From Pseudolactococcus reticulitermitis (GTDB taxonomy: Bacteria; Bacillota; Bacilli; Lactobacillales; Streptococcaceae): a stretch of DNA of 64,000 nt. The first letter of the stretch is position 1. The number at the start of each line of letters is the position of its first letter. Of the stretch, positions 1,524 to 28,789 are shown piece by piece. The DNA lies in the NCBI RefSeq assembly GCF_002260845.1, contig NZ_BEDT01000002.1:62001-126000 (forward strand), written 5' to 3'. A program made the translations under genes and the position numbers. The notes beneath the pieces are model-generated. The model did no database searches. It had not been told where the DNA came from and saw only the letters and a program-made list of their open reading frames with translations.

Positions 1524-1549
1524 AAATCAGTCGAGAGGCTGATTTTTTT
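1524..1549 (+). terminator. intrinsic terminator of typA operon
   Basis: Stem AAATCAG / CTGATTT followed by a run of seven T. Its T-tract runs directly into the TG of the extended -10 element for tsaE, so terminator and next promoter are fused. Confidence 0.85.
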
Positions 1550-1563
1550 GATATAATAAACCT
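1549..1563 (+). promoter_or_regulatory. extended -10 promoter, predicted leaderless start of tsaE
   Basis: TGA-TATAAT-AAACCT directly followed by the ATG at 1564. The usual start point, about 7 nt after the -10, is the A of the start codon. No Shine-Dalgarno sequence is present. Confidence 0.65.
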
Positions 1564-1986
1564 ATGAAAGTAAATGAAAAACAAATGCTGGCGTTTGCTG
1601 AAACCTTAGGCAAAAAGTTGCAAGCAGGAGATATTATCGTCTTGACCGGTGAATTAGGCGCAGGTAAAACAACCTTTACCAAGGGTCTCGCCCTCGGTTT
1701 AGACATTCATCAGATGATAAAAAGCCCGACCTACACCATCGTTCGGGAGTACGAGGGGCGCCTCCCCTTGTATCATATGGATGTCTATCGGATTGGCGAT
1801 GATCCAGATTCGATTGATTTAGATGATTATTTATTTGGCAATGGTGTCACTGTGATTGAGTGGGGGAATCTTTTAGCGCAAGATTTGCCGACTGAGTATC
1901 TGGAGATTATTTTTGACTACCAAGATGATGAACGAGAAGTGACCCTAGTCGCACATGGCAGTCACTATGACAGCTATTTAGCCTAG
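1564..1986 (+). CDS. tsaE: tRNA threonylcarbamoyladenosine biosynthesis ATPase TsaE
   Basis: 140 residues with the Walker A motif GELGAGKTT at residues 29-37, a KSPTYTIVREYEG segment and HMDVYR, all typical of TsaE (YjeE). It is the ATPase that works with TsaB, TsaD and TsaC to make t6A37 in tRNAs reading ANN codons; cytoplasmic. The ATG follows 6 nt behind an extended -10, so the mRNA is predicted to be leaderless. The GNAT gene follows after 31 bp in the same orientation, as in other lactic acid bacteria. Confidence 0.95.
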   Translation: MKVNEKQMLAFAETLGKKLQAGDIIVLTGELGAGKTTFTKGLALGLDIHQMIKSPTYTIVREYEGRLPLYHMDVYRIGDDPDSIDLDDYLFGNGVTVIEWGNLLAQDLPTEYLEIIFDYQDDEREVTLVAHGSHYDSYLA

Positions 1987-2017
1987 ATTTAAACCTTGTC
2001 GCCCTTAAAGGAGCCAT

Positions 2018-2533
2018 ATGACTGAAATTATCGTAAGAGAAGCAGCACCGCAAGACGCCAAAAACTTGATTGATTTCCTCAATCAAGTCGGTAAGGAATC
2101 ACATTTTTTAACCCTCGATGAAGCAGGTATCTTGCTGACGGAAGCCCAAATGTCTGAATACCTCGCACAAATTGCTGAAAAAGATAATAACGCCTATCTG
2201 TTAGCCTTAGTGGACAATCAAATTGCTGGTGTTATTAGTTTGACAGCAGATTTTCATGACCGTATTCGCCATATCGGCGATTTATTTATCGCTGTTAGCC
2301 AAGATTTCCAGGGCTATGGTATCGGTCATATTTTGATGACGGATATGTTGGACTTTATTCAGGAAGTTGGGGCCATCAAGCGCTTGGAACTTCAAGTTCA
2401 GAAACGAAATGACAGAGCCATTCATCTTTATCAAAAACATGGTTTTGAGATGGAATCAACTCGAAAATTCGGTGCAAGAGATGAATTTGGTACCCTCATC
2501 GATGTATTAGAAATGGTCAAATTTTTTGATTAA
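2018..2533 (+). CDS. GNAT family N-acetyltransferase
   Basis: 171 residues with a GNAT fold. The acetyl-CoA loop reads QGYGIGHILM (about residues 98-107), followed by LELQVQKRNDRAIHLYQKHGFE, the typical beta5/alpha4 signature. SD AAAGGAG lies upstream of ATG 2018. Substrate unknown. It lies between tsaE and an LCP protein, a common arrangement in lactococci and streptococci, probably in the tsaE transcript. Confidence 0.88.
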   Translation: MTEIIVREAAPQDAKNLIDFLNQVGKESHFLTLDEAGILLTEAQMSEYLAQIAEKDNNAYLLALVDNQIAGVISLTADFHDRIRHIGDLFIAVSQDFQGYGIGHILMTDMLDFIQEVGAIKRLELQVQKRNDRAIHLYQKHGFEMESTRKFGARDEFGTLIDVLEMVKFFD

Positions 2534-2585
2534 GGTTACAAGTTTGTAACATTTTATACGAATGCAGGTTTGCATCTAGTTTTTC

Positions 2586-2600
2586 TGGTAAAATGGAATA
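2586..2600 (+). promoter_or_regulatory. extended -10 promoter, predicted leaderless start of the first LCP gene
   Basis: TGG-TAAAAT-GGAATA directly followed by ATG 2601. Same geometry as at 1549, 11760, 14666 and 27479 and on the minus strand at 11703, 19633 and 26287. Confidence 0.6.
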
Positions 2601-3911
2601 ATGAAAAGAAGTCAGAGAATTAATGAAGAAGCCAAGCATGGCTCTAAAAGAACTAAAAATAGAAAGCTAAAGAAAAACGGCAAGCCAAAGATGAGACTTT
2701 GGAAGAAACTATTGCTAAGTTTTTTAGCAGTCATTTTAGTGTTTGCAGGCCTCATCTTTGCTTATGGTACCGTTGTGTTAAATCGGACAGAGAATGCTTT
2801 TAAATCAACGTTTTCTGATTTAGGCTTGAGTTCGAGTAAAAAATCAGATGACATCATCAAGGCGACTAAACCTTTGACTATCTTACTGATGGGAGTGGAT
2901 ACTGGTTCTGGTGATCGGACTGATTTGTGGTCAGGTCAGTCGGATACGATGATTGTCATGACAATCAACCCTCAGACCAATACGACGACCATGGTTTCCT
3001 TGGAACGGGATATGTTGACGAATATCATCGATAAAGATGGGGATGTTGTCGAGACAGCCAAGCTAAATGCCGCCTATGCGAGTGGTGATGCTGTGTCTGC
3101 AGTCTCAACGATTCAGCAACAAATTGGCTTAGATATTGATAAATATGCCCTGATTAACATGAATGGTTTGAAAGACCTTGTGGACGCTGTTGGCGGCATT
3201 GAAGTAGATAATCAACTAGGGGCAACGATTTCAATTGAAGAAACGGAGCCTGATTATACCGCAACCATTGCCCCCGGTAAGCAACATATCGATGGCGACC
3301 AGGCCTTGGTCTATGCCCGGATGCGCCATCAGGATCCAGAAGGTGATATTGGTCGTCAAGCGCGTCAGCGTGAAGTCATTACGCAAATCATGGGTAAAAT
3401 TTTAAGCTTGGATTCCATCACCAAGTATGAGAAAATTTTGACCGCCATTTCTGGCAATATGAAAACAGACTTTGCTGTGAATGCTAATTCTTTGAAAAGT
3501 TTGCTAGGTTACAAGGATGCTTTCAAAAAAATGCGCTCGATTAAATTGCAAGGTCTAGGTGAAATGATTGATGGGATTTCTTACCAAGTCATGCCAGCTG
3601 ATAACTTATTGAGTGTTCAAAATGCCTTGCGCTTATCGCTTGGCAAGCCAGTCGAAAAAAGCCTGTCACCTAATATTATTACCTTTGAAAATTATTATGG
3701 TGGCTATGCGCCAAGTGTAACATTGCCAACAGTCACAACAACGGTCAATGGCAAAACAACTGAGAAAACCTTGCTGACGGATGGCGAGGAGACTTCCGCA
3801 GAAAAAGCCACAGAAGCAAGTACATCTGAGACTACCGCGACATCAGATACGACCTATGATAGTCAAACCTCAGAAACACAATATGATGTTTATGGCAATC
3901 CCATTTATTGA
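2601..3911 (+). CDS. LytR-CpsA-Psr family wall polymer transferase
   Basis: 436 residues. A basic cytoplasmic N-terminus (1-32), one membrane helix (about 33-56) and an extracellular LCP domain (about 90-245) with DRTDLWSGQSDTMIVMTINP, SLERDMLTNI and the Arg-rich VYARMRHQDPEGDIGRQARQ block. A Ser/Thr/Glu-rich tail (about 385-436) ends in NPIY. LCP proteins transfer teichoic acid or capsule polymers from lipid carriers to peptidoglycan. A second LCP gene is at 27494. The ATG lies 6 nt after an extended -10 with no SD. Confidence 0.92.
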   Translation: MKRSQRINEEAKHGSKRTKNRKLKKNGKPKMRLWKKLLLSFLAVILVFAGLIFAYGTVVLNRTENAFKSTFSDLGLSSSKKSDDIIKATKPLTILLMGVDTGSGDRTDLWSGQSDTMIVMTINPQTNTTTMVSLERDMLTNIIDKDGDVVETAKLNAAYASGDAVSAVSTIQQQIGLDIDKYALINMNGLKDLVDAVGGIEVDNQLGATISIEETEPDYTATIAPGKQHIDGDQALVYARMRHQDPEGDIGRQARQREVITQIMGKILSLDSITKYEKILTAISGNMKTDFAVNANSLKSLLGYKDAFKKMRSIKLQGLGEMIDGISYQVMPADNLLSVQNALRLSLGKPVEKSLSPNIITFENYYGGYAPSVTLPTVTTTVNGKTTEKTLLTDGEETSAEKATEASTSETTATSDTTYDSQTSETQYDVYGNPIY

Positions 3912-3932
3912 TAGATGCATTTTAAACAGTAT

Positions 3933-3961
3933 TTGACGAAACTGCTGAATTTTGGTAAAAT
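3933..3961 (+). promoter_or_regulatory. promoter of tRNA-Arg
   Basis: -35 TTGACG (3933-3938), 17-bp spacer, -10 TAAAAT (3956-3961) with an upstream TGG. Predicted start near 3968, just ahead of the tRNA at 3977. Confidence 0.75.
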
Positions 3962-3976
3962 TTAGTAGTTGTATTT

Positions 3977-4050
3977 GGTCTCATAGCTCAGCTGGATAGA
4001 GCATTCGCCTTCTAAGCGAACGGTCGCAGGTTCGAATCCTGCTGGGATCA
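3977..4050 (+). tRNA. tRNA-Arg (anticodon UCU)
   Basis: A cloverleaf can be drawn: acceptor GGTCTCA with TGGGATC (two G-U pairs), D arm GCTC/GAGC, anticodon stem TTCGC/GCGAA with loop CTTCTAA (anticodon TCT, reads AGA), T arm GCAGG-TTCGAAT-CCTGC, discriminator A at 4050. The CCA end is not encoded (CTA follows). It has its own promoter and terminator. Confidence 0.96.
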
Positions 4051-4066
4051 CTAATTGATAAAGTTT

Positions 4067-4096
4067 AAAACTTCTTAGATTCTGAGAAGTTTTTTT
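4067..4096 (+). terminator. terminator of tRNA-Arg
   Basis: Stem AAAACTTCT / AGAAGTTTT with a seven-T tail. Confidence 0.85.
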
Positions 4097-4202
4097 GTTA
4101 GTTTGGGGTATAAATAGAGCTTATAGCCTTATTAAAGGTTTAAGTATATGGCGAACGCTGAAATCTATGCTATCATTAGTCTAAGAGAAAAAAGGAGGCG
4201 CT

Positions 4203-4889
4203 ATGCAGTATCTACCCTTAGAAAAATCAGAAGTTTTGCGCTATCTGGGCTATAGGCGCAAACAAGAATTAACGGCGGCTATCTCGGCGCTGGTGGATGA
4301 GATGATGCTGGCAGTTCAGGACGTGTCAAATGCCCGATATATTTATCAGGCCTATGATTTTACCCTAGATGAGAGTAAGCAAGCCATTCATTTAACCAAT
4401 ACTGACTTGGTGTTCCAGTCGAAACAGCTTTACAGTCATCTGAAACATGCGAAACAAATCGTTTTGTTAGCAGCCACGCTAGGGATTGAAGTCGAACGTC
4501 AAGTCAGGCTTTATGAACTGTCTGAGATGACCAAGGCGCTTGTCTTAGATGCGGCATGTGTGGATTATATTGAAAAAATCTGTGATTTAGCAGAGGTTGA
4601 TATTGATGCTCAGTTTAAAGATAAAGTACTAAATCGCAGATTTTCGCCAGGTTATGGTGACCTGTCTCTAGACGTTCAGCCTCAATTTTTAAAAACTTTG
4701 GAAGCTGATCGACAACTGGGATTAACCTTGACAGAGACCAATTTAATGGTGCCTAGAAAATCAGTCACAGCTATTCTTGGCTTATTTGAGGACGAAAAAC
4801 TAGCGCGACCTAGACGCAAGCCACCTCAAAATCTGACAGTTGAGATGGTTAGAAATGGCAATTTTAATGTGATGGATACAGCCTTATGA
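4203..4889 (+). CDS. stand-alone methionine synthase reactivation-domain protein
   Basis: 228 residues. The C-terminal half carries RFSPGYGDLSLDVQ (about residues 147-160) and LGLTLTETNLMVPRKSVTAI, the S-adenosylmethionine-binding signature of the MetH activation domain. In E. coli that domain is the C-terminal part of a 1227-residue MetH; here it is a separate gene. Its expected role is reductive methylation of inactive cob(II)alamin on MetH. It overlaps the next gene by 4 bp (ATGA), and the MetH gene at 5609, which lacks this domain, completes the set. SD AAAGGAGG lies before ATG 4203; an extended -10 (TGC-TATCAT) ends at 4176. Confidence 0.85.
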   Translation: MQYLPLEKSEVLRYLGYRRKQELTAAISALVDEMMLAVQDVSNARYIYQAYDFTLDESKQAIHLTNTDLVFQSKQLYSHLKHAKQIVLLAATLGIEVERQVRLYELSEMTKALVLDAACVDYIEKICDLAEVDIDAQFKDKVLNRRFSPGYGDLSLDVQPQFLKTLEADRQLGLTLTETNLMVPRKSVTAILGLFEDEKLARPRRKPPQNLTVEMVRNGNFNVMDTAL

Positions 4890-5383
4890 TGACGAAAAGA
4901 TTAACGCGTCTTGCCATATTAACCGCACTTGCCTGTGTGCTTCGGCTTGTTTTTGGTGCTTTTCCAAATGTTAAACCAATTGCAGCCCTGTTTTTTGTCC
5001 TTATCTTGGCTTACGGTTTAGCTGACGCCATCATTGTCAGTAGTTTAACGATGGTTGTGACTGGCTTTTTGATGGGATTCTCAGTGATTATTTTGGGACA
5101 GATGATCAGCTATGCCTTGATTTTGAGTCTGGGGGCACTCGTCTTTAAATGGATTAAACCGATTTTTCTACGAACGTTAGTGATTTTCGGTTTGACCATG
5201 CTGTATGGGGTGCTTATCTCGATTTTTTCTGCTCGACTATTCGGTAGTCCGATCTTACCCTTTTGGCTCAGTGGCTTGACGTTTGACCTGGCACATGCCG
5301 TGTCAACGGCACTCTTTTTCCCAATTTTAGTGACCATTTTCAAAAATATTTTAAAACATGATACTGAAAGCGATGCGACGTAA
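4886..5383 (+). CDS. ECF transporter S component, probably for a cobalamin-type substrate
   Basis: 165 residues with about five to six membrane helices and the N-terminal FPNVKPIAALFF motif seen in one group of ECF S components. The ATG overlaps the stop of the MetH reactivation gene, so the two are translationally coupled. That coupling and the MetH gene behind it suggest uptake of B12 or a precursor (CblT-like). The substrate is an inference from context; the EcfA/A'/T module is not in the window. Confidence 0.7.
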   Translation: MMTKRLTRLAILTALACVLRLVFGAFPNVKPIAALFFVLILAYGLADAIIVSSLTMVVTGFLMGFSVIILGQMISYALILSLGALVFKWIKPIFLRTLVIFGLTMLYGVLISIFSARLFGSPILPFWLSGLTFDLAHAVSTALFFPILVTIFKNILKHDTESDAT

Positions 5384-5608
5384 TCGCAAACTTCTGTAGA
5401 AAATTAGGGATTTATGGTGCTCCTGCGATGACTCGTCGTAGGTGAACTTTCTGCGCTTGCGCAGGTTCAGAAATCATCTATTTTCCTATGGCATTGCAGT
5501 TGCTGCTTTAGCAGCGTACGGAAAAGCTAAAGGCAACGTGCCTTAGTGATTTATCACTTAGGCGTTGATAAGAAGTGAGCTTGGAGTTCAAATAAAGGAA
5601 GACCTAAT
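5384..5608 (+). promoter_or_regulatory. hairpin-rich leader of metH, possible RNA element
   Basis: 225 bp with a chain of strong inverted repeats: GAAC-TTT-CTGCGC / GCGCAG-GTTC (5444-5468), GCTGC-TTTA-GCAGC (5502-5515), AAGGCA-ACG-TGCCTT (5530-5544) and CCTTAGTGA-TTTA-TCACTTAGG (5541-5562). The last two share CCTT (5541-5544) and cannot form together. No T-run follows. No B12 box, T-box or SAM-box motif was recognised, so the element class is unknown. SD AAAGGAAG precedes the metH ATG. Confidence 0.45.
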
Positions 5609-7987
5609 ATGACGATTTTAACAGCTTTAAAAACGCAAATTTTACTTTTTGACGGGGCAATGGGGACGCAACTTCAAAACAGGGGCTTACCGATTGGTGG
5701 CATTCCTGAGCATTTTAATCTGACGCATCCGGAGGTTGTTGCGGCAATTCATCGAGATTATGTAGCGGCAGGGGCGGATGTTATCACGACCAATACCTTT
5801 CAGGCGAATACGACGAAAATGACGGCAGATGGGGTGGCAGAGACGATTCGTGCAGCGGTTGCTCTGGCTAAACAAGCTGCGCCAAAATATGTCGCCTATG
5901 ACATGGGACCGACAGGCCAACTTCTGCAACCTATGGGTACTTTGTCTTTTGAGGCAGCTTATGAGATGTTCAAACATCAGGCAATCATCGCGGAGCAAGC
6001 TGGGGCAGATTTAGTTATCATCGAGACGGTAGCCGATTTGTTGGAGGCTAAAATCGCAGTTTTAGCGGTTAAAGAAAATACGAAATTGCCCGTCTTTGTC
6101 ACCATGACTTATCAGGAAGATGGTCGAACCTTTGTCGGGGTTGACCCGCAAACTGCAACTTTGACCCTGCAAAATCTGGGTGTGGATGTGCTCGGAGTCA
6201 ACTGTTCACTGGGACCAAAAGAATTAGCACCGATTGTCGATAAAATTTTAGAGTATGCACAAATGCCAGTCATGGTGCAGGCTAATGCGGGTCTACCACA
6301 GATGGCAAATGGCGAGACGGTTTACAAAATCACACCTGAAACTTATGTCGCCTATACGCAAAAACTGTTGGCGCAAGGTGTGGCGGTCGTCGGGGGATGT
6401 TGTGGGACAACACCAGAATTTATCCGCCAATTACGCTCGCTCATCGATCAAACGGAAAAAGTTTATCCAGAGCCAAAATCAGGCACTTTTATCACTTCAG
6501 GACTTAAAACGCTAGAAATTGGTAAGGGCTTGACGCTTATCGGTGAGAGAATCAATCCAACAGGTAAACCGCGCCTGAAAGCAGCCCTGCGTCAAAATAA
6601 TATCGGCTACCTTATTCAAGAAGCAGTTGCCCAGCGTGATGCTGGCGCTGATATTTTGGATGTCAATGTTGGCCTACCCGAGATTGATGAGGCTCAGATG
6701 ATGGTTAAAACGATTGTCGAGTTGCAGTCTTTGCTTGACCTGCCCTTACAGATTGATTCGTCAGAAGTGGCAGCGCTTGAAGCTGGTGCGCGTCATTATA
6801 ATGGTGTTCCTCTGGTTAATTCAGTCAATGGCAAACCGTCTAGTCTGGCTAAGATTTTGCCAATCGTGGCGAAATACGGCGGGGTTGTTCTAGGCCTCTG
6901 TCTAGATGAGACAGGCATTCCTGAAACGGCTGAAAAGCGCTATCAAATCGCTGAAAAAATCGTCCATGAAGCTGGGAAATATGGCATTACACCCGACCGT
7001 GTGATGATTGATCCCCTGGTCTTGACAGCCTCTGCCCAGCAAGACCAAGTGCTTGTCACATTGGATACCATTCGCCTAGTCAAAGAACGTTTGGGCTGTA
7101 AAACGGTTGTCGGCTTGTCCAACATTTCCTTTGGCTTGCCAAATCGTGATTTACTCAATGGCACGTTTCTGGCGCAAGCCTTTGGCGCAGGACTTGATGC
7201 GCCGATTATGAACCCTTTGTCAGATGATATGATGCGCGTGGTGCGCTCGCTCAAGGTGTTCACGGGACAAGATAGCAACTCGGCAGAGTATATCGCGAAA
7301 GCTCAAAATGCAACAATCGCCGTCACGGCGTCCAATGGGAGTGGCAATCAAGCACCGACTGATGACACCCTAGATTTGAAAGGGATGATTATCAAAGGTC
7401 GTAAGGAGTTGACAGCTGATGAAACGAGAAAAATGCTGGAAACACTGACACCGCTTGAAATCGTCAACGCCTATTTTATTCCTGCTTTGGATGTTGTCGG
7501 TGCTCAATTTGAAAAAGGCGAGCTATTTTTACCACAGCTCATGCAGTCTGCTGAGGCGACGCAACAAGCACAAGAAGTCTTGAAAGTAGCACTTGCAAAA
7601 TCAGGTCAACAATCAGCATCTCTAGGCAAACTTTTACTTGCGACGGTCGAAGGGGATATCCATGATATCGGTAAAAATATCGTGAAGATGATTCTGGAAA
7701 ACTATGGCTATGCTGTCGTTGACCTTGGCAAAGATGTGCCGATTGAGACAGTGGTGGAGACGGTTGTCACGCAAAAGATTAAATTGGTTGGTCTATCAGC
7801 CTTGATGACGACAACAGTGCAAAATATGAAAAAAACGATTACTGCCGTTAAAGCTGTTGCACCAGACACTGTCTTTATGGTCGGTGGGGCAGTCCTCAAT
7901 GAAGAATACCGTGAATTTGTCGGTGCTGACTATTATGCCAAAGATGCCATGGTGAGTGTTGAAATCGCTCAGACATTTTTTAAGTAA
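5609..7987 (+). CDS. metH: cobalamin-dependent methionine synthase lacking the activation domain
   Basis: 792 residues. Residues 1-290: homocysteine methyltransferase domain (FDGAMGTQLQNRG; zinc ligands in VNCSLGP and GGCCGTTP). About 305-560: pterin-binding domain (GERINPTGKPRLKAAL; DILDVNVGLPEID). About 580-670: cobalamin cap. About 670-792: B12 domain with EGDIHDIGKNIV, the DxHxxG base-off motif. It transfers the methyl group of 5-methyl-THF to homocysteine via methylcobalamin. The E. coli enzyme is ~430 residues longer because it includes the reactivation domain, encoded here at 4203. Cytoplasmic. Confidence 0.93.
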   Translation: MTILTALKTQILLFDGAMGTQLQNRGLPIGGIPEHFNLTHPEVVAAIHRDYVAAGADVITTNTFQANTTKMTADGVAETIRAAVALAKQAAPKYVAYDMGPTGQLLQPMGTLSFEAAYEMFKHQAIIAEQAGADLVIIETVADLLEAKIAVLAVKENTKLPVFVTMTYQEDGRTFVGVDPQTATLTLQNLGVDVLGVNCSLGPKELAPIVDKILEYAQMPVMVQANAGLPQMANGETVYKITPETYVAYTQKLLAQGVAVVGGCCGTTPEFIRQLRSLIDQTEKVYPEPKSGTFITSGLKTLEIGKGLTLIGERINPTGKPRLKAALRQNNIGYLIQEAVAQRDAGADILDVNVGLPEIDEAQMMVKTIVELQSLLDLPLQIDSSEVAALEAGARHYNGVPLVNSVNGKPSSLAKILPIVAKYGGVVLGLCLDETGIPETAEKRYQIAEKIVHEAGKYGITPDRVMIDPLVLTASAQQDQVLVTLDTIRLVKERLGCKTVVGLSNISFGLPNRDLLNGTFLAQAFGAGLDAPIMNPLSDDMMRVVRSLKVFTGQDSNSAEYIAKAQNATIAVTASNGSGNQAPTDDTLDLKGMIIKGRKELTADETRKMLETLTPLEIVNAYFIPALDVVGAQFEKGELFLPQLMQSAEATQQAQEVLKVALAKSGQQSASLGKLLLATVEGDIHDIGKNIVKMILENYGYAVVDLGKDVPIETVVETVVTQKIKLVGLSALMTTTVQNMKKTITAVKAVAPDTVFMVGGAVLNEEYREFVGADYYAKDAMVSVEIAQTFFK

Positions 7988-8126: not shown

Positions 8127-8161
8127 GGATAGGAAATAAAAAAATATTTGGAGGAATTAGG

Positions 8162-11238: not shown

Positions 11239-11688
11239 TTAACCAAAAAGTTTAGCGAAAAATCCCTTTTTCTGAGGTGGAAGTGCAGGTGATTCCTTCG
11301 GCACCAAATCAGGAAAAACATCAGACAAGCCAATCTTGTCAAGATTAAGCGCATGGTCGGTATGAATGACGATGCCATAGTGATCAGAAGCAGGCTCAGT
11401 TAAAATCTGTCCCTCAAAATGATGGTCAGTGGCTAATTTCAGATAATAGCCAGTCAAGTCATCAGGCAATTCACCACAAATTTTAACAAAAATTGGCGGT
11501 TCTGCTGTGTCAAAATGATTTAAAATTTGTCCAAATTTGTCTTTGACTTGTGTAGATTTCGCGTCAGTAAAAGTAATCGCAAGAAAAATACGCTCACGAA
11601 AAGTGTTCAGGTACAATTTTTGTTCATCGGGATTTAGTCGATATTCACCGCTTGAGGCGCGATCAAGCCTATTTTCTAAATTCGTCAT
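11239..11688 (-). CDS. YueI-like protein, DUF1694
   Basis: 149 residues. The N-terminal segment YRLNPDEQKLYLNTFRERIFLAIT is characteristic of DUF1694 (B. subtilis YueI). The C-terminal tail is basic (QKKGFFAKLFG), a possible membrane-surface anchor. Function unknown. The ATG lies 6 nt after TGG-TAAAAT on the minus strand with no SD, so a leaderless transcript is predicted. Divergent from the GNAT gene at 11775, which shares this geometry. Confidence 0.75.
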   Translation of the reverse strand: MTNLENRLDRASSGEYRLNPDEQKLYLNTFRERIFLAITFTDAKSTQVKDKFGQILNHFDTAEPPIFVKICGELPDDLTGYYLKLATDHHFEGQILTEPASDHYGIVIHTDHALNLDKIGLSDVFPDLVPKESPALPPQKKGFFAKLFG

Positions 11689-11703
11689 ACTGTTATTTTA
11701 CCA
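11689..11703 (-). promoter_or_regulatory. extended -10 promoter, predicted leaderless start of the yueI-like gene
   Basis: On the minus strand TGG-TAAAAT-AACAGT then ATG (11688). Confidence 0.6.
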
Positions 11704-11759
11704 CAAATAAACCGGTTTCATTCAAAAACATTTTTTCTATACCACTCATGAGATATTAA

Positions 11760-11774
11760 TGTTATAATACAGTC
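11760..11774 (+). promoter_or_regulatory. extended -10 promoter, predicted leaderless start of the RimJ/RimL-type gene
   Basis: TGT-TATAAT-ACAGTC then ATG 11775. Divergent from the matching minus-strand element at 11689-11703. Confidence 0.65.
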
Positions 11775-12332
11775 ATGAGTATCTATGAAAAATTAGCGAC
11801 TTTCAACATCATTGAAACGCCGCGGTTAGTGTTGCGGCCCCTGTCGATGACGGATGCCGAAGATATGTTTGACTACGCGAGTAAACCGGATAATTTGGTT
11901 TACGTTTTTCCTGCACATCATAATCTAGCGGAAACACGCTTGACGATTGCGACTTTATTTATGAAAGAGCCCTTGGGAAAATGGGCGATTGAACTCAAGT
12001 CAGAGGCTGCTATGATTGGAACGGTTACCTTTGTCAAATTAGATGAAAAAGCAAGAACGGCAGAAATTGGCTATACACTAAACCAAAAATATTGGGGACA
12101 AGGCTTAATGACGGAGGCTGTTAGAACGCTTGCAGAAATCAGCTTGACAGAATTTGGTCTATGTCAGTTGGCTATCGTCGTTGATGCAGAAAATATTGGT
12201 TCGTGTAAGGTCGCCGAAAAGTCAGGTTTTATTTTACAAGAAAACTATAAAGCGCTCAATCCTTATACCAAAATTTTGAGAAATTTTAAACGTTATACTC
12301 GTTTAAGTCAAAAAAGTAAACAAAATTTTTGA
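11775..12332 (+). CDS. GNAT acetyltransferase, RimJ/RimL type
   Basis: 185 residues. It starts with the family pattern IIETPRLVLRPLSMTDAEDM and has the acetyl-CoA loop region EIGYTLNQKYWGQGLMTEAV (about residues 99-118), then NIGSCKVAEKSGF. These enzymes acetylate ribosomal proteins or small amines; the substrate here is unknown. Predicted leaderless start. No terminator was seen before the next gene. Confidence 0.88.
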   Translation: MSIYEKLATFNIIETPRLVLRPLSMTDAEDMFDYASKPDNLVYVFPAHHNLAETRLTIATLFMKEPLGKWAIELKSEAAMIGTVTFVKLDEKARTAEIGYTLNQKYWGQGLMTEAVRTLAEISLTEFGLCQLAIVVDAENIGSCKVAEKSGFILQENYKALNPYTKILRNFKRYTRLSQKSKQNF

Positions 12333-14665: not shown

Positions 14666-14680
14666 TGGTATAATTGTTTT
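14666..14680 (+). promoter_or_regulatory. extended -10 promoter, predicted leaderless start of the HD gene
   Basis: TGG-TATAAT-TGTTTT then ATG 14681. The TAG stop of the upstream gene ends at 14665, so this promoter begins in the very next base. Confidence 0.65.
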
Positions 14681-15187
14681 ATGAATAAAAAAGATTTTCC
14701 ATGGCTGTATGATGCTGAGTATATGTCCTATGTCGGTGGGCTCTTAGAGACACCAGAAGTTCAAAAATTAAATGAGTTTACACATCACTACATTTCGACG
14801 CGCTTGCTCCATTCTTTGAATGTCAGCTACACGTCTTACAAAATTTCTAAAAAATTGGGTTGGAACAAAAAAGCAACGGCTCGTGCAGGGCTGTTACATG
14901 ACCTCTTTTATTACGACTGGCGTGAAACCAAGTTTCCCGAAGGCAGTCATGCCTATGTGCATCCAAGAATTGCTTATCAAAACGCTCAAAAACTGACGAC
15001 AATTTCGAAATTAGAAAAAGACATCATCATCAAACATATGTGGGGGGCAACCATTGCACCACCACGCTATAAAGAAAGTTTTGTCGTGACTTTTGTTGAT
15101 GATTACGTCGCCATCAAAGAATGGACGCAGTTGATGAAGATGAAATGGAAACATCATAAACTGTTCAAGAAAGAAAAATTAAGTTAA
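14681..15187 (+). CDS. HD domain hydrolase
   Basis: 168 residues. HD motifs: HSLNVSYTSYKISKKLGW, RAGLLHDLFYYDW (HD pair near residue 74) and KHMWG near residue 120. Proteins of this type are metal-dependent phosphohydrolases; the substrate is unknown. Predicted leaderless start. The stop overlaps the next ATG by one base (TAATG), so the two are coupled. Confidence 0.8.
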   Translation: MNKKDFPWLYDAEYMSYVGGLLETPEVQKLNEFTHHYISTRLLHSLNVSYTSYKISKKLGWNKKATARAGLLHDLFYYDWRETKFPEGSHAYVHPRIAYQNAQKLTTISKLEKDIIIKHMWGATIAPPRYKESFVVTFVDDYVAIKEWTQLMKMKWKHHKLFKKEKLS

Positions 15188-19000: not shown

Positions 19001-19002
19001 AG

Positions 19003-19228: not shown

Positions 19229-19618
19229 TCAACTTTTTCTTTTAGTCAATAATTTTTTGACTTTACTCATGAGTGTCGGTGCTTTAACCACCTTGTCATT
19301 ACCGATATGTTCCCGAATCAGTTTCAGGACTTTACCAGCGTCTTTAGAAGAAAAACGCACATGGTTTTGTCGTTTGCTGTTGCCTTGTCTATTTAACACA
19401 ATGATGAATTGACGACTGATTTTATTTTGGCGCGTGACGATACCCTCGACATGGTGAATGGTTTCCCAGGGTATTTGAATGGTATCAGCAACATTGGCAT
19501 CGTTAAAAAACTCAAATGCTTTATCGCCAATGAGGAGCTTACCATAAACGCTACCAATGCCAACATAGGCGATAGCTTGAAAAGGGGCAGAAGTTTTTGT
19601 ATTCAGTGATTGTACCAT
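19229..19618 (-). CDS. manO: ManO, DUF956 family protein of the mannose PTS locus
   Basis: 129 residues. Fits DUF956 in length and in IPWETIHHVEGIVTRQ and RFSSKDAGKVLKLIREHIG; the family is nearly always found directly downstream of manXYZ. It has a GRAM/PH-like look and was named ManO as a putative regulator; the biochemical role is not established. A terminator separates it from manZ and it has its own predicted leaderless promoter (TGA-TATACT-ATAACT-ATG). Confidence 0.85.
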   Translation of the reverse strand: MVQSLNTKTSAPFQAIAYVGIGSVYGKLLIGDKAFEFFNDANVADTIQIPWETIHHVEGIVTRQNKISRQFIIVLNRQGNSKRQNHVRFSSKDAGKVLKLIREHIGNDKVVKAPTLMSKVKKLLTKRKS

Positions 19619-19633
19619 AGTTATAGTATATCA
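19619..19633 (-). promoter_or_regulatory. extended -10 promoter, predicted leaderless start of manO
   Basis: Minus strand TGA-TATACT-ATAACT then ATG at 19618. Lies just past the man operon terminator. Confidence 0.6.
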
Positions 19634-19641: not shown

Positions 19642-19670
19642 AAAAAAAGCCTGTCATAAATGACAAGCTT
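19642..19670 (-). terminator. terminator of the manXYZ operon
   Basis: Minus strand stem AGCTTGTCA-TTTA-TGACAGGCT, then a T7 run. Confidence 0.85.
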
Positions 19671-19680
19671 TTCAAATTTC

Positions 19681-21418: not shown

Positions 21419-21435
21419 GTTTAATTCCTTTCGTT

Positions 21436-22425: not shown

Positions 22426-22471
22426 ATTTGAGTTCCTCCTTATGAATAATTGTAAAAAAATATTACACTCT

Positions 22472-22501
22472 ATTATGCACTTATCCTGAATGGTTTGTCA
22501 A
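22472..22501 (-). promoter_or_regulatory. promoter of the man PTS operon
   Basis: Minus strand -35 TTGACA (22496-22501), 18-bp spacer, -10 CATAAT (22472-22477). Leader of about 40 nt. Confidence 0.75.
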
Positions 22502-22509
22502 GCTATATT

Positions 22510-22523
22510 TGCAACCGTTTTCC
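22510..22523. promoter_or_regulatory. cre-like site upstream of the man promoter
   Basis: TGCAACCGTTTTCC matches TGNAANCGNTNNCA at all but the last position. It sits 8 bp upstream of the -35, a position typical of CcpA activation rather than repression. It also resembles the MalR operators at 32580 and 39401, so the regulator could be either. Confidence 0.55.
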
Positions 22524-22669
22524 ATGTCATCATATTGTATTATGACAGACTATTTACAAACTTGGAAAAATACTCTGATAAAAAATAAGCTGTTTTCTCT
22601 AGGTATATTGCTAAAAATGTTATAAACTATACCTATAAATAAAAATTAGAATCTGAGTAGGCAATCACC

Positions 22670-23566
22670 ATGAGAATCCAACAATTAAAATATATCATCA
22701 AAATCGTTGAGACAGGCTCGATGAATGAGGCGTCAAAACATTTATTTGTGACACAGCCGTCACTTTCAAATGCGGTAAGAGAATTAGAAGAAGAAATGGG
22801 AATTAAAATTTTCACGCGTTCCACTCGTGGCATTACCTTGACATCAGATGGTGCTGAGTTTTTATCTTACGCGAGACAAATTGTAGAGCAAACAGAGCTT
22901 TTGGAAGAACGCTATAAATATAAGCATGAGAAAAAGGAGCTGTTTGCTGTCTCCGCACAACATTATGCCTTCGTTGTCGAAAGTTTTGCCAGCATTTTGC
23001 GGGAAAATGATATGCGAAACTATGAGCTGATTTTGCGGGAGACACGGACGCATGAAGTGATTGCTGATGTGCGCGATTTTCGCTCAGAAATCGGCGTTTT
23101 ATACCTCAACGATTTTAATCGGGATGTCCTGACTAAACTATTCTTGGATAACAATCTTGAGTTTACCCCGCTATTTCAGACGGTCCCGCACGTTTTTATC
23201 TCTAAGCACCATCCGCTAGCTAATCAAACGTCGGTCACGATTGACGAAATGGCAGCCTTTCCCTATCTGAGCTATGAGCAAGGGGAGCGCAATTCCTTTT
23301 ACTTTTCTGAGGAGATTTTGTCGACGGCGAGACATGATAAATCGATCGTTGTATCTGACCGTGCGACCCTCTTTAATTTGCTGATTGGGCTCGACGGCTA
23401 CACCATTTCCACGGGGATTTTAAACAGCGATTTGAATGGCGATGACATCGTCAGCGTGCCGCTGCAAGTGGATGAGCAAATCGAGATTGGCTATATTTGT
23501 CACAAGAAAGGTCTGTTATCAGAACTCGGGCAACGCTTTTTGAAAGAACTGAAAGCTAAGGTTTAA
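22670..23566 (+). CDS. LysR-family transcriptional regulator
   Basis: 298 residues. N-terminal winged helix (1-60: MNEASKHLFVTQPSLSNAVRELEEEMG) and a periplasmic-binding-protein-like effector domain (~90-295). It is divergent from manX over a 244-bp gap, but nothing in the sequence ties it to the PTS. The effector is unknown. It is similar in layout to the sulfur-amino-acid regulators of streptococci, but no specific match was recognised. Confidence 0.88.
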   Translation: MRIQQLKYIIKIVETGSMNEASKHLFVTQPSLSNAVRELEEEMGIKIFTRSTRGITLTSDGAEFLSYARQIVEQTELLEERYKYKHEKKELFAVSAQHYAFVVESFASILRENDMRNYELILRETRTHEVIADVRDFRSEIGVLYLNDFNRDVLTKLFLDNNLEFTPLFQTVPHVFISKHHPLANQTSVTIDEMAAFPYLSYEQGERNSFYFSEEILSTARHDKSIVVSDRATLFNLLIGLDGYTISTGILNSDLNGDDIVSVPLQVDEQIEIGYICHKKGLLSELGQRFLKELKAKV

Positions 23567-23585
23567 CCATTTAGGGAGGGGCAAA

Positions 23586-24755
23586 ATGCCTGAGACAATT
23601 TTTTCAAAACAAGACATTCGGCGCTATCTGATTCACCATTTTGGGCTAGATCGGTTAGATGCCTATGGCGCTGGAAAAACGGGTCTTTTAACGTATATCA
23701 GGCACGTGACGAGTCTGCAGCAAGACCCGCTGAATATCATCGGGACAAACATTGATATTATTTTAGCCAGTCGGTTTTCAGAGTATTCGCCTCAGATGTT
23801 GGCTGAGTTGCTCTATGAAGATGAGCTTTTGATAGAAGGCTTTGATAAGGAGGCCTGTCTGTTTTCACGCGATGAATGGGGACGCTTTGCCTTTGCCCGT
23901 GAAAAAAGGGCTGAAGCGCATCTCAGGACTTTGAGTTATCGAAACCATGAGATGGCGTTGGACTACTTGGCTGATGTGACGGAGATTTTACAGAAGAGTT
24001 CTGAGCCGATTTCCCCTCAGGATTTGAAGCTTGGGCAACTTGCTGATAGTAGCTGGGGAAGTTCAAATTTAGGTAATGCTGTTCTTTACCAGCTTTGGTG
24101 TCAAGGCCTAGCAGTGATTGCTGGGAGACAAGGACGGCGTAAACTGTATAAGCACTATGAACAAGCCAAGGGCTTGACCAATTTACCGACATTTGACTCA
24201 GAAACAGACTTTTTGGACTGGTTTATCTATCGGAGGTTGTCTGGCTTAGGGGCTTATTGGCTGAAGTCTGGTGCGGGCTGGCTAGGGCGAATGATGAAAG
24301 AGCGTAAAGCCGTTATCGCGCGGTTTGTCGATCAGGGAAAAGTCGTTAAAATTCAGGTGACAGATATGACAGAATCGCTGTACCTGACGCAGGACAATTA
24401 TCAGCGATTACTAGCGGTCAAAGAGACGCCAATCAAAACCAATCAGGTCAAATTTATTGCGCCACTGGATAATTTGATTTGGGATCGGAAATTTGTTAAA
24501 GAACTCTTTGATTTTGAATATGTTTGGGAAGTGTATAAGCCAGAAAAATTACGCCAATATGGCTATTATGTTTTGCCTATTCTTTTAGGAGATAAATTGA
24601 TAGCTCGATTTGAACCAGACCGAGATAAGACACGTCAGAATACTTTGCAAATCAGCAAGATTTGGTTCGAGTCGGAAAGCTATCAAACACCTGAAATTGA
24701 AAGGCTGATTGCGACGGAAGTTCAACGTTATAATGCTTTGCTACCGAGAAAATAG
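23586..24755 (+). CDS. winged-helix protein of the YcaQ/AlkX DNA glycosylase family
   Basis: 389 residues. The N-terminal part has IRHVTSLQQDPLNIIGTNIDI, in which QQD lines up with the catalytic Q-x-D motif of YcaQ (HTH_42 family). Known members unhook interstrand crosslinks or remove bulky alkyl adducts. SD GGGAGGGG. It follows the LysR gene by 19 bp and may share its transcript. Confidence 0.78.
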   Translation: MPETIFSKQDIRRYLIHHFGLDRLDAYGAGKTGLLTYIRHVTSLQQDPLNIIGTNIDIILASRFSEYSPQMLAELLYEDELLIEGFDKEACLFSRDEWGRFAFAREKRAEAHLRTLSYRNHEMALDYLADVTEILQKSSEPISPQDLKLGQLADSSWGSSNLGNAVLYQLWCQGLAVIAGRQGRRKLYKHYEQAKGLTNLPTFDSETDFLDWFIYRRLSGLGAYWLKSGAGWLGRMMKERKAVIARFVDQGKVVKIQVTDMTESLYLTQDNYQRLLAVKETPIKTNQVKFIAPLDNLIWDRKFVKELFDFEYVWEVYKPEKLRQYGYYVLPILLGDKLIARFEPDRDKTRQNTLQISKIWFESESYQTPEIERLIATEVQRYNALLPRK

Positions 24756-24805
24756 CACTCTTATATTTAGAAATAAAAATTAACAAGAAAAGTAGGAATA
24801 ATATA

Positions 24806-25381
24806 ATGAAAAAAAGTAGAACAGAAGCCTTTACAGACGCTGTTATTGCCATCGTCATGACAATTTTAGTCTTGGAGTTTCCACACGTTCATGGGTCTAC
24901 CTTTGCAGACTTGATTGTTCTGAAAGATATTTTCCCAGCTTATGTCATTAGTTTTATCTTTTTGGTGATTTACTGGAGTAATCATCATCATATTTTTCAA
25001 ATCATTGATAAAGTCAGTGGTCAAACGCTTTGGTGGAATAATGCGTTTATCTTTTTAATCACGCTTTTGCCATTTACGACTAGCTGGTTGGGGGATAATA
25101 TTTGGGCGCATGATCCAGAAATTCTTTTTGCTGCTTTGTTTTTATTCGCTAACTTAACTTGGTTATGCATGATTAAAAACTTAGTGAAAGTTAATGCCCA
25201 CAATGCGTGTGTGACGAAAATTTTGGGAGATTATCGTAAATCTTATCGGACATTGTTATTAAACTTGTTGGCTTTGATAGTCGCTTTCTTTATCCCAATT
25301 GGTGGCTTGCTGATCAACGTTGTTTCTTTTCTCCTTTGGGTTGTGCCGGACAAACGAATTGAAAAGATTAAAAACAAGTAA
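24806..25381 (+). CDS. TMEM175 family (DUF1211) potassium channel-like protein
   Basis: 191 residues with about six membrane helices. The first helix carries the family motif RTEAFTDAVIAIVMTILVLE, the selectivity filter region of TMEM175. YWSNHHHIFQ and WWNNAFIFLITLLPF also fit. Bacterial members are tetrameric K+ channels. SD GTAGGAA. Confidence 0.85.
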   Translation: MKKSRTEAFTDAVIAIVMTILVLEFPHVHGSTFADLIVLKDIFPAYVISFIFLVIYWSNHHHIFQIIDKVSGQTLWWNNAFIFLITLLPFTTSWLGDNIWAHDPEILFAALFLFANLTWLCMIKNLVKVNAHNACVTKILGDYRKSYRTLLLNLLALIVAFFIPIGGLLINVVSFLLWVVPDKRIEKIKNK

Positions 25382-25540
25382 GGCTTGACAGGATTGTGAG
25401 GTATAAAAAAGAAAAACACCCCATATGTTGCGGCTGATTTTTTGAAAAACAGGACATTCTGACACCATTTTTAATGTTTTATTTCAGAAAATATGATAAA
25501 CTTGATATAAGTACTTTAATAAAGAGAGGGTGTTAGGTAC

Positions 25541-26035
25541 ATGATTAAAATATTCGGTAAATTACGTTATCATTGGCAACCCGAGTTGTCAATCACGATA
25601 ACTTACTGGTGCTTGTCCATTGCACCTATTTTCATTAGCTTGGCTTTATTATATGAAAATACCAAAATTTCAAAATCATCTTTTATCCTTTTTATTATTT
25701 TTATCGTGTTAGTCTGGATAGGGTTTCAACGCTATTTTGAAATTTCGGATGATAAAGATTTATTGCTGTCAAGAGGTTTGGTACCAGGCTATGCTGGGAA
25801 GACCGTGATTTCAAGTATCTCTAAAATAAAAATCAGTAAACGTGCGATTATTATTTATACCAATCACAATGTTAAAGGTAAGATTTTCTATATGAGAAAA
25901 TGGCCTAAAAAATATTTTGTGGATACGTTGACAACAAATTCATATTTTCAAGGAGAGGTTGAATTAATCGGTCATATTGACCATTATTTTGACAGCTATT
26001 CTAACGACAAAAAAAGTAAACTCAGCCAAATTTAA
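25541..26035 (+). CDS. ebsA: EbsA-like membrane protein
   Basis: 164 residues with two N-terminal membrane helices (~20-40, 46-63) and a C-terminal basic domain. The start FGKLRYHWQPELSITITYW and the position next to ferredoxin, LysM protein and cmk match the EbsA family of streptococci and enterococci (annotated as pore-forming or surface-related; function unproven). SD AGAGAGGG. Confidence 0.72.
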   Translation: MIKIFGKLRYHWQPELSITITYWCLSIAPIFISLALLYENTKISKSSFILFIIFIVLVWIGFQRYFEISDDKDLLLSRGLVPGYAGKTVISSISKIKISKRAIIIYTNHNVKGKIFYMRKWPKKYFVDTLTTNSYFQGEVELIGHIDHYFDSYSNDKKSKLSQI

Positions 26036-26043
26036 AATGTATC

Positions 26044-26066
26044 AAAAAAGCACAGGCTAGCTGTGC
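26044..26066 (-). terminator. terminator of the ferredoxin gene
   Basis: Minus strand GCACAG-CTAGC-CTGTGC then T6. Confidence 0.75.
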
Positions 26067-26074
26067 AATGATAA

Positions 26075-26272
26075 TTAATAGGCTTTGACGACGATGGCTC
26101 TAGTTGGGCATTCTTTAGCCGCTTGAACAAGACTAGCGTCAGACGTGATGTCAAGTTCGGTATCGCCCGTATCAAAACGAACTAAACCATCGATATCATA
26201 GTTAAAAATCGGATTATAAGTGTGGCAGAGGCCACAAGCAATGCACTGCTCAGGAAGTATTTGAATTCTCAT
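26075..26272 (-). CDS. ferredoxin
   Basis: 65 residues from ATG 26272 (MRIQILPEQCIACGLCHTY). Cys pattern CxxCxxC near the N-terminus plus a fourth Cys in KECPTRAI indicate one [4Fe-4S] cluster. An upstream in-frame ATG at 26329 would run through the promoter and into the divergent gene. The ATG is 6 nt behind TGT-TATACT, so the mRNA is predicted leaderless. Electron carrier; partner unknown. Confidence 0.9.
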   Translation of the reverse strand: MRIQILPEQCIACGLCHTYNPIFNYDIDGLVRFDTGDTELDITSDASLVQAAKECPTRAIVVKAY

Positions 26273-26287
26273 ATGACTAGTATAACA
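26273..26287 (-). promoter_or_regulatory. extended -10 promoter, predicted leaderless start of ferredoxin
   Basis: Minus strand TGT-TATACT-AGTCAT then ATG. The TATA core (26281-26284) is shared with a plus-strand TATAAC (26281-26286) facing the LysM gene. Confidence 0.6.
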
Positions 26288-26300
26288 GAGAAAGGACATC

Positions 26301-26777
26301 ATGACTAAAAAAAATGAACCATGGAACAATGAAGTTTATGGTGCCATGCAGGAATCGCGTGGTGATATGCCGCCTAAACGGTCATCTAAAAAAAATGAGG
26401 CTTCTACCAATTTTTTAACTTTTTTAGTTGTCCTTTTGTTTATGATTATTGGTGGCATTGTGGTGATTATTGTTTGGAATAATCGACTTGTCGATAATAC
26501 TAAGATTTCATCGAGTTTTTATACGAGTAAATCTAGTGTTGCTCAATCAACACCAGCTAGCCAATCGAGTTCAGCAACAGAAGAGAAATCTTCGGAGCCT
26601 GAAACGTCTGAGTCAAGTTCAGCTGTAGTTGGCGAGACGACGACGGTTGAAGCTGGCGAAGGTCTGTATCAAATCGCTGCCCGAACAGGTGGCGATGCTC
26701 AAACAATTGCCAAGGCAAACGGGATGACCGTTGAGAATTGGTATGCAAACCCAGGAGATGTCATTAAGTTAAAATGA
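26301..26777 (+). CDS. LysM surface protein (SAG1386/EF1546 type)
   Basis: 158 residues. Charged N-terminal cytoplasmic part (1-32), one membrane helix (~33-55), a Ser/Thr/Glu-rich linker (~70-110) and a C-terminal LysM motif ([20 protein letters not shown], ~112-158) that binds peptidoglycan. The protein is a membrane-anchored wall-binding factor of unknown role. SD AAAGGA. It overlaps the cmk start (ATGA), so it is coupled to cmk, as in streptococci. Confidence 0.87.
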
Positions 26778-27436
26778 ATTTAAAAGAGATTAGAATTGCC
26801 ATTGATGGCCCAGCTTCTAGCGGCAAATCAACCGTTGCTAAAATGATTGCTAAAGATCTGGATATTATCTATCTGGATACGGGTGCCATGTACCGTGCGG
26901 CAACTTATGTTGCGCTATCAAACGATTTAGATGACGATGTCGCGCAAATCATTGCCATTTTAAAAGAAAATCCGATTTCATTTGGCACGTCGTCAGAAGG
27001 TCAGCTGGTCTATGTCGGTGAAGTGGATGTGACCCATGCCATTCGTCAAAATGATGTGACCAATGCGGTTTCTAAAATTTCAGCCATTCCTGAAATTCGT
27101 GCCTATCTGGTTGATGCCCAGCGTGAGATTGCAGGTCATGGCGGGATTGTTATGGACGGTCGAGACATTGGGACAGTTGTTTTACCTGATGCTGAGCTTA
27201 AAATCTTTTTAGTGGCTTCTGTCGAAGAACGGGCAGAACGCCGTTATAAGGAGAATTTAGCTAAAGGGATTGAAACGGATTTCGCGCAATTGAAGTTTGA
27301 GATTGCTGAGCGTGATCGCAAGGATTCAACACGGAAAGTTAGCCCGCTTAAACAGGCTGACGATGCGATTTTAATTGATACAACAGGCATGGGTATCGCA
27401 GTAGTAGTTGCTAAAATTGAAAGTTTTATTAAATAA
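26774..27436 (+). CDS. cmk: cytidylate kinase
   Basis: 220 residues. P-loop [15 protein letters not shown] (~13-27), LDTGAMYRA, the CMP-binding insert, [13 protein letters not shown] and the lid [14 protein letters not shown]. Phosphorylates CMP and dCMP. Translationally coupled to the LysM gene. Confidence 0.97.
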
Positions 27437-27478
27437 TTCTGATTAATTTCAGTTTTTTTTTACATTTAGCTGGAAATT

Positions 27479-27493
27479 TGATAAAATAAGGGA
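27479..27493 (+). promoter_or_regulatory. extended -10 promoter, predicted leaderless start of the second LCP gene
   Basis: TGA-TAAAAT-AAGGGA then ATG 27494. The AAGGGA looks like an SD but abuts the ATG with no spacer and so cannot act as one. Confidence 0.55.
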
Positions 27494-28789
27494 ATGGACC
27501 AACGAATAAAATTAAGAATAGAATATTTACGTGCTAATCTCAAATACCTTAACGATACTGAGTTGGCAGAATATAATCGGTTGACTGGTCAGCATTTGAC
27601 ACACCAGCACCAACAGCAAACGCAAGAACCTTACCAAGCACAACAAACTCATCAATCAAATCAGGGGTATCAGTCGTCTCAAGCCTATCAACAAGCACCG
27701 AGGTTTGAACCGCAGCCCAGCTCGGATGGGGTTAATCAACATCATTATAAGCAGCATAAGCAGCGCCCAGTTAAAAAGCCTAAAAATAAGAAAAAACGTA
27801 AAAAAGTGAGTTTCTGGAAGAAATTACGCCGTTTTCTTTTGCTTATCCTGATTTTGATGATTGCGTTCTTTATCTATGGTTACCAGCGTGGTAAAAGTCA
27901 CGCGCCAGAAGGTTTGAAAACAGAGAAGTTTTCCGGTCAAAAAGCACCTTCTGGTGCGACCAATATCTTGATATTAGGGACTGACCAGCGTGATTTTCAG
28001 ACGACTGGTGATGCGCGAAGTGACTCAATCATGGTCATGCAGATAGGAGCTAAAGATAAGAAAGTCAAGCTCGTCAGCTTTATGCGGGATACCTTGGTCT
28101 ATCAGCCGGGCGTTAGCCAATACGGTGCAGATACGAAAATCAATGTCGCCTATAACATAGGAGAACAAGATGACCATCAGGGCGCCGAGTACATGCGTGA
28201 GGTCTTGAAGAAAAACTTTGACATCGATATTCAGTACTATGCCTTAGTCAACTTCAATAGTTTTGCGACAGTCATTGATTCTCTCTTTCCAATGGGCGTT
28301 AAGATTGATGCTAAGTTTGCCACGATTGGTGGCGAAAAAGTTAAGTCAGTGGAGGTGCCAGACGATTTGAATTGGACACCTGAGCATCAAGATCCGATTC
28401 AAAGGATTAAAGTCGGTCCACAGCGGATGGATGGTCGAACCTTGCTCAATTATGCGCGTTTCCGTAAGGATGATGAGGGTGACTTCGGTCGGACTAAACG
28501 TCAACAGCAGGTCATGCAGGCGATTATGTCAGGCGTTAAGAGTCCGCTGACTCTCTTCACAGGCAGTTCAGCCTTGGGCACAATCAAAGGCGTGACCTCA
28601 ACCAATGTCAGCGATTTCTTTATGCTGACCCATGCCCCAGGCCTCGCACTCAATGCAGCCAAAGGGATTGAAAGTTATACCGTTCCTGAAAATGGCGACT
28701 GGGTTGAGGCCTTAGACCAATACGGCGGCTCAGGTTTACAGATAGACTTTGATAAGTATCAGGCTAAACTGAAAAACTTGCTAGGGTAA
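27494..28789 (+). CDS. LytR-CpsA-Psr family wall polymer transferase (second copy)
   Basis: 431 residues. Gln/His-rich cytoplasmic N-terminus (~35-90), a Lys/Arg stretch, one membrane helix (~113-133), and an LCP domain (~165-340) with TNILILGTDQRD, DSIMVMQIG, SFMRDTLV and NYARFRKDDEGDFGRTKRQQ. It differs from the copy at 2601 in its poly-Gln N-terminus and lacks the Ser/Thr tail. Both copies have the same predicted leaderless start. Confidence 0.92.
   Translation: MDQRIKLRIEYLRANLKYLNDTELAEYNRLTGQHLTHQHQQQTQEPYQAQQTHQSNQGYQSSQAYQQAPRFEPQPSSDGVNQHHYKQHKQRPVKKPKNKKKRKKVSFWKKLRRFLLLILILMIAFFIYGYQRGKSHAPEGLKTEKFSGQKAPSGATNILILGTDQRDFQTTGDARSDSIMVMQIGAKDKKVKLVSFMRDTLVYQPGVSQYGADTKINVAYNIGEQDDHQGAEYMREVLKKNFDIDIQYYALVNFNSFATVIDSLFPMGVKIDAKFATIGGEKVKSVEVPDDLNWTPEHQDPIQRIKVGPQRMDGRTLLNYARFRKDDEGDFGRTKRQQQVMQAIMSGVKSPLTLFTGSSALGTIKGVTSTNVSDFFMLTHAPGLALNAAKGIESYTVPENGDWVEALDQYGGSGLQIDFDKYQAKLKNLLG

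Follow-up and report, generated by a model that had tools for sequence, protein, structure and literature searches.

Leaderless genes of the Lactococcus-Streptococcus clade, to which we add here eight predicted members from a 64,000-nucleotide stretch of Pseudolactococcus reticulitermitis DNA (contig NZ_BEDT01000002.1, positions 62,001 to 126,000 of the forward strand; hereafter the window), were described in a computational survey of 2011 as a TA-led (Pribnow-led) class that included L. lactis and showed an extremely strong TG signal in Lactococcus (PMC3160421). For Streptococcus agalactiae, 78 leaderless genes, or 8% of mRNAs, have been reported, with a mean distance of six nucleotides from the TATA box to the transcription start site (TSS) downstream of it and with TGn present in 64% of the promoters (PMC4448216). 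In S. pneumoniae, 70 operons (9%) were reported to have the transcript start on the first base, and translation of the leaderless pbp2a was demonstrated with a reporter, in which addition of a ribosome-binding site (RBS) was without effect (PMC6212727). The 67 leaderless transcripts given for S. pyogenes (8.6%) include 54 in common with S. agalactiae, and 39 of these are also common to S. pneumoniae (PMC6431027); control of leaderless transcripts by 70S ribosomes and MazF is discussed in the same paper. Our literature search for differential RNA sequencing papers on Lactococcus found none in the collection searched.

The class itself is already known in lactococci and streptococci, and the predicted leaderless genes of the window are additional members of it. 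An earlier note on this DNA had held leaderless mRNAs to be rare in low-GC Firmicutes, which agrees with the value of under 1% reported for enterococci (PMC7724050) and does not apply to the Lactococcus-Streptococcus clade, given the 8–9% of streptococcal transcripts and the prediction for L. lactis.

A Fixed Distance between Promoter and Start Codon

Each of the eight starts carries an extended -10 element (TGN-TAWAMT), exactly six nucleotides and the ATG. All eight motifs and their ATGs were found where the earlier note had placed them, and the window contains a ninth match which that note had not listed:

1549..1566, plus strand: tsaE start, TGA-TATAAT-N6-ATG (gene 1564-1986; TsaE family)
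2586..2603, plus strand: start of LCP gene 1, TGG-TAAAAT-N6-ATG (gene 2601-3911; LCP, closest to LytR)
11686..11703, minus strand: DUF1694 gene start, TGG-TAAAAT-N6-ATG (gene 11239-11688)
11760..11777, plus strand: GNAT acetyltransferase start, TGT-TATAAT-N6-ATG (gene 11775-12332; divergent from DUF1694)
14666..14683, plus strand: start of an HD-domain gene, TGG-TATAAT-N6-ATG (gene 14681-15187)
19616..19633, minus strand: DUF956 gene start, TGA-TATACT-N6-ATG (gene 19229-19618; behind a mannose-family phosphotransferase system (PTS) gene)
26270..26287, minus strand: ferredoxin start, TGT-TATACT-N6-ATG (gene 26075-26272; small ferredoxin)
27479..27496, plus strand: start of LCP gene 2, TGA-TAAAAT-N6-ATG (gene 27494-28789)
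52219..52236, minus strand: ninth match, TGATATAAT-N6-ATG (TGA-TATAAT), start of a 21-codon open reading frame (ORF)

The eight genes are housekeeping genes of various kinds, with no common pathway visible. "manO" was the earlier note's own name for the DUF956 gene.

TGNTAWAMT-N6-ATG, with its nine matches in the window, turned up 0.23 times on average and never more than twice in 100 dinucleotide shuffles of the same sequence. Genome-wide, there are 41 copies of the strict TATAAT form, TGNTATAAT-N6-ATG, and 4 of the reversed pattern. When any gap from 0 to 30 nt is allowed (TGNTATAAT-N(0-30)-ATG), the count rises to 227, or about 7 for each of the 31 spacings (reversed pattern, 37), and spacing 6 alone accounts for about a fifth of these matches. 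The spacing in nucleotides between the -10 hexamer and the ATG (k) was also recorded for ATGs lying in frame within the initial 40% of 973 ORFs, in an 864-kb sample of the same genome consisting of the window and 40 further stretches. TGNTAWAMT stands before 33 of these ATGs at k=6 and before 11 at k=7, and every other value of k up to 60 has 0–6; ORFs were called with a simple script, and some of the k=6/7 sites may be false. The "exactly 6" of the earlier note is correct for the eight window genes, and a smaller spacing-7 class is also found.

In the same sample, GTG starts yielded no match at spacing 6 or 7 and TTG starts none at 6 and one at 7, neither showing a peak, and these counts correspond to the AUG-only starts of leaderless genes in the Lactococcus-Streptococcus clade. 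Outside the window there are 36 sites, of which 30 were scanned and all but one of these assigned to a family; the further leaderless-like genes found include those for UvrB, RecQ, RNase III, RimM, thymidylate synthase, lipoprotein signal peptidase, response regulators, MurT, FemAB and others.

The leaderless genes of this clade also lack a Shine-Dalgarno (SD) sequence. An SD duplex of -5 kcal/mol or stronger was found at 0 of 32 such starts, compared with 63% of 426 other ORFs, scored at their leftmost ATG, in the first 464 kb. Moreover, T occupies position -1 at 46 of 73 leaderless-type starts from this genome and one sister genome (G001), compared with 48 of 153 starts at spacing 15–60 (p 1e-5). 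This preference would be expected if transcription started on the A of the ATG, with that A as +1 and the T as -1, and it supports such a start indirectly.

Conservation in the Genus

The same-genus set comprises 12 genomes including that of P. reticulitermitis, and orthologues were searched in the 11 sister genomes for TGN-TANNNT at k=5–8 before an in-frame ATG. Of the 88 gene-genome pairs, 76 were readable, the other 12 lying beyond the fetched stretches or at their edge. The geometry is kept in all 76, with 72 at k=6 and four at k=7, so that the 6-nt spacing, whose conservation in related genomes the earlier note had proposed to check, is largely maintained. For tsaE it occurs in 11/11 sister genomes (k=6 in eight, k=7 in three), as it does for LCP gene 1 (one at k=7), DUF1694, ferredoxin and LCP gene 2 (11/11 each). 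The GNAT gene has it in the 7/7 sister genomes where it was found in the fetched stretches, and the HD-domain and DUF956 genes in 7/7 read, four genomes being unread for each of the three. Together with the peak at k=6–7 in the own genome and the 8/8 window genes, the 76/76 orthologues yield a fixed -10 distance that would place +1 on the start codon.

Among the 72 orthologues with k=6, identity to the window amounts to 0.88–0.99 in those hexamer columns that the search pattern left free and to 0.93 in column -17; in the spacer it is 0.43–0.69 for columns -6 to -2 and 0.78 for -1. The window's exact spacing had been considered unlikely to arise by chance, and the shuffles, the spacing histogram and the conservation bear this out. 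A chance placement of A/T-rich words resembling a -10 in front of ATGs, for which we found no supporting point, is contradicted by all three and was rejected on the 9 matches against 0.23 expected in the shuffles; we consider its probability negligible.

Identity over codons 2–16 of the same orthologues is 0.84, 0.87 and 0.66 at the first, second and third codon positions, respectively, which puts the beginning of the coding sequence at the predicted ATG or close to it. This bears on the possibility that the starts were mis-chosen and that the true ones are SD-led codons further downstream. In tsaE there is one in-frame TTG, at codon 27, preceded by a weak SD, but within 40 codons no SD-led downstream codon occurs in the other seven genes, and substitutions are of the coding type from codon 2 onward. 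On the basis of the downstream-start search and the codon-position pattern this explanation was rejected, and we hardly credit it at all.

Interpretation as Leaderless Genes

We consider that the eight window genes belong to the kind of leaderless gene established for the Lactococcus-Streptococcus clade, with a probability, judged from sequence, of about 0.94. The fixed spacing, the lack of an SD, the ATG-only starts, the T at -1 and the conservation, all computed directly, lead to this interpretation, and they lend strong support to the earlier prediction of leaderless mRNAs. According to the mechanism we envisage, the housekeeping RNA polymerase would recognise the extended -10 element (TGN-TATAAT-like), often without an evident -35, transcription would begin 7 nt past the hexamer, at the A of the ATG, and the ribosome would initiate at the 5'-terminal AUG without an SD. 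The actual 5' ends, initiation on the bare AUG and any regulatory meaning are inferred.

Several observations weigh against this interpretation. The four k=7 orthologues may carry a 1-nt leader, and the LCP gene 1 orthologues in two sister genomes (G003 and G008) required an ATG 4 and 3 codons, respectively, from the projected start. In the own genome, 4 of the 44 k=6/7 sites lie within another ORF, and in G014, a genome of the same-family genus g2 sampled over 400 kb, the peak is small: there are three sites each at k=6 and k=7, and two of these fall within other ORFs.

The window genes resemble the leaderless transcripts reported for S. pneumoniae, S. agalactiae and S. pyogenes, members of the same family, in their promoters, which often carry TGn, in the use of AUG with the TSS, predicted in the window genes, mostly on its A and in their conservation across species (PMC6212727, PMC4448216, PMC6431027). 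They differ from these streptococcal sets, which were mapped by RNA sequencing, in being predicted from sequence and in belonging to another genus. With the TA-led genes of the 2011 survey they have in common a signal resembling TATAAT, placed some 12 bp 5' of the start codon, and the TG peak, extremely strong in Lactococcus; that survey worked with whole-genome statistics, and the present work follows single genes across a genus together with their spacing, terminator and -35 (PMC3160421).

Individual Genes of the Window

The nearest named relative of the TsaE protein is that of Lactococcus chungangensis, with 93% identity, which assigns the window to a Lactococcus of the L. chungangensis group. 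LCP gene 2 carries, by eye, a -35-like word, TTTACA, 17 bp 5' of its -10, and residues 30–127 of its protein, N-terminal to the LCP domain, show a weak match to the MacP family, whose curated cut-off the match does not reach (E 1.3e-6).

The DUF1694 and GNAT genes form a divergent pair (11686-11777), both with leaderless-type starts. In several sister genomes the DUF1694 promoter contains words that we take to be similar to the catabolite-responsive element (cre), suggesting catabolite control. At 26265-26310 the ferredoxin start (26272, minus strand) and a divergent gene (26301, plus strand) have about 28 bp in common; the divergent gene has its SD next to the ferredoxin -10, and the upstream promoter region of ferredoxin is within the coding start of that gene.

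Terminator-Like Hairpins Upstream

Two of the window promoters are preceded by terminator-like structures:

1523..1549, plus strand: terminator-like hairpin with T-run, the last T being the T of TG in the tsaE promoter
19642..19672, minus strand: terminator-like hairpin with T-run, separating the DUF956 promoter from the mannose-family PTS gene and ending 9 nt before the TG

The hairpin at tsaE is present in 8 of the 11 sister genomes and, by eye and uncounted, shows paired base changes among them; the three genomes lacking it (G002, G005 and G010) still keep the promoter geometry. That at DUF956 was seen in six of the seven sister genomes shown, being absent from G011.

These hairpins, lying directly 5' of tsaE and DUF956, bear on the possibility that the ATG-proximal promoter is secondary and that the genes are expressed mainly from longer upstream transcripts by SD-independent initiation. 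Read-through could occur into the HD-domain gene (14681), which begins 15 bp after the preceding ORF; the hairpins speak against the secondary-promoter explanation, as do the divergent arrangements of 11688/11775 and of ferredoxin and 26301, and we regard such expression as very improbable.

Hairpins with a T-run abutting the TG were searched with a home-made finder at intergenic sites having a same-strand ORF within 200 nt. Pooled over three genomes, they occur at 14 of 38 leaderless sites and at 6 of 100 control sites, the controls being extended -10 elements at spacing 15–60, which surely include false promoters (Fisher p 2e-5). Separately, the own genome yielded 11/21 versus 3/59, G001 3/15 versus 2/20 and G014 0/2 versus 1/21, such that the pooled effect derives mostly from the own genome and the other two contribute little.

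An abutting terminator is, in our view, a probable secondary feature of leaderless starts; because a leaderless promoter would need no -35, the terminator may occupy its place. A more far-reaching proposal, which we put forward tentatively and consider unlikely, is that many leaderless genes here are fusions of terminator, promoter and start of about 50 bp, in which the T-run of the terminator leads into the TG of the extended -10, followed by 6 nt and the ATG, the hairpin replaces the -35 region and the terminator would block read-through RNA carrying an unreadable leaderless ATG, so that expression would depend only on messages with a 5' AUG; a class insulated in this manner could be tuned together by the state of the ribosome. 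A limited literature search produced nothing to the point on such fusions, which does not show that they are unpublished.

Spread and Turnover among the Lactobacillales

The strict TATAAT form occurs 35–51 times per genome in 12/12 genomes of the genus (reversed pattern, 0–5) and 15–32 times in 15/15 genomes of the same-family genus g2. In 102 genomes of other Lactobacillales families it occurs 0–12 times, with a median of 3; four of these exceed 7, two of which contain repeated copies of one sequence.

Membership of the class changes over this range. Among the best 80 tsaE loci, 27 have the leaderless layout, namely 24/24 from Streptococcus, that of L. chungangensis and two from Periweissella, and the other 53 do not, including 31 that were given no class. 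An SD, called in the family loci by a lenient pattern, precedes tsaE in the lactococci L. nasutitermitis and L. hircilactis (loci L003 and L005) and in a metagenome-assembled genome (L002). The Periweissella loci (L032 and L054, from two species) carry TGN-TATAAT-N6-ATG outside the Streptococcaceae, an arrangement that is either convergent or old.

DUF1694 is leaderless-like in the genus, in G014 (k=6) and in G130 of genus g45 (k=7), and in the other seven homologues found the start is preceded, by eye, by a leader that contains an SD-like stretch. For DUF956, 9 of 30 family loci are leaderless-like, four of them from the genus; of the 26 loci outside the genus 19 are SD-led and five leaderless-like. 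For the HD-domain gene the corresponding values are 9 of 26 loci, again with four from the genus, and, of the 22 outside, 12 SD-led and five leaderless-like.

Ferredoxin has the TG form in 8 of 30 family loci, four from the genus. (Locus L300 for DUF956 and locus L270 for ferredoxin each come from a genome that already contributes another locus to the count.) Outside the genus, where 24 of 26 ferredoxin loci have a usable ATG, 12 have plain TANNNT at spacing 6 and 3 have it at spacing 7, with 0–5 at each other spacing, and several loci show, by eye, a TTGACT- or TTGTTT-like -35 instead of TG. It would seem that the -10-N6-ATG arrangement is retained while TG and -35 replace each other. The starts of LCP gene 1 in the Streptococcus loci L001–L030 comprise 20 classed as "other", six leaderless-like, of which two at k=8 look spurious, two with an SD and two without a hit.

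A third LCP gene lies 2.9 kb before the window (stretch L083, from 17120) and is SD-led, with no such promoter at its ATG. The earlier claim that "both LCP genes" belong to the class holds within the window and not for the genome.

Possible Control by the State of the Ribosome

The leaderless class could constitute a regulon read out by ribosome state, its members rising jointly in translation with 70S monosomes, with the IF2/IF3 ratio or with MazF-trimmed ribosomes. This is speculation, and the idea is already in print for streptococci, having been raised in the paper on S. pyogenes (PMC6431027). Membership is long-kept for some genes, with tsaE leaderless-like in all 24 Streptococcus loci, and the P. 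reticulitermitis genome encodes two proteins scoring over the PemK/MazF cut-off. In Escherichia coli, MazF-trimmed ribosomes reportedly translate leaderless mRNAs selectively (cited in PMC6431027); the predicted messages of the window would be similar in having a 5'-terminal AUG, whereas stress-dependent translation is a feature of the E. coli system.

Set against a regulon of this kind are the lack of a pathway common to the genes found, the SD-led third LCP gene and the absence of an effect, in the reporter experiment described, when an RBS was added to the leaderless pbp2a (PMC6212727). A fixed regulon should also show stable membership across related genera, and DUF956, HD, tsaE and DUF1694 are instead SD-led in some members of the family or order and leaderless in others, which speaks against a fixed, co-regulated set. 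We judge the ribosome-state regulon improbable; an obligatory or fixed form of it was judged unlikely on the grounds of membership turnover and the SD-led LCP gene.

For lactococci, a simple sequence rule for leaderless genes emerges, consisting of an extended -10 element, 6 nt and ATG, and this geometry is kept across the genus and, for tsaE, in Streptococcus too. Lactococci would be suitable hosts for testing why genes keep or lose their leaders; knowledge of leaderless translation itself is unchanged by these results.

The Ninth Match and the Phage-Like Region

The stop codon of the 21-codon ORF at the ninth match overlaps the ATG of an SD-preceded ORF, 51803-52159 (52159-52236, minus strand). 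The short ORF resembles a leaderless leader peptide coupled to the downstream gene, and a phage-like region is nearby. The latter extends over about 53–64 kb of the window and carries two DNA methylase genes, a replication-protein match and a terminase large subunit.

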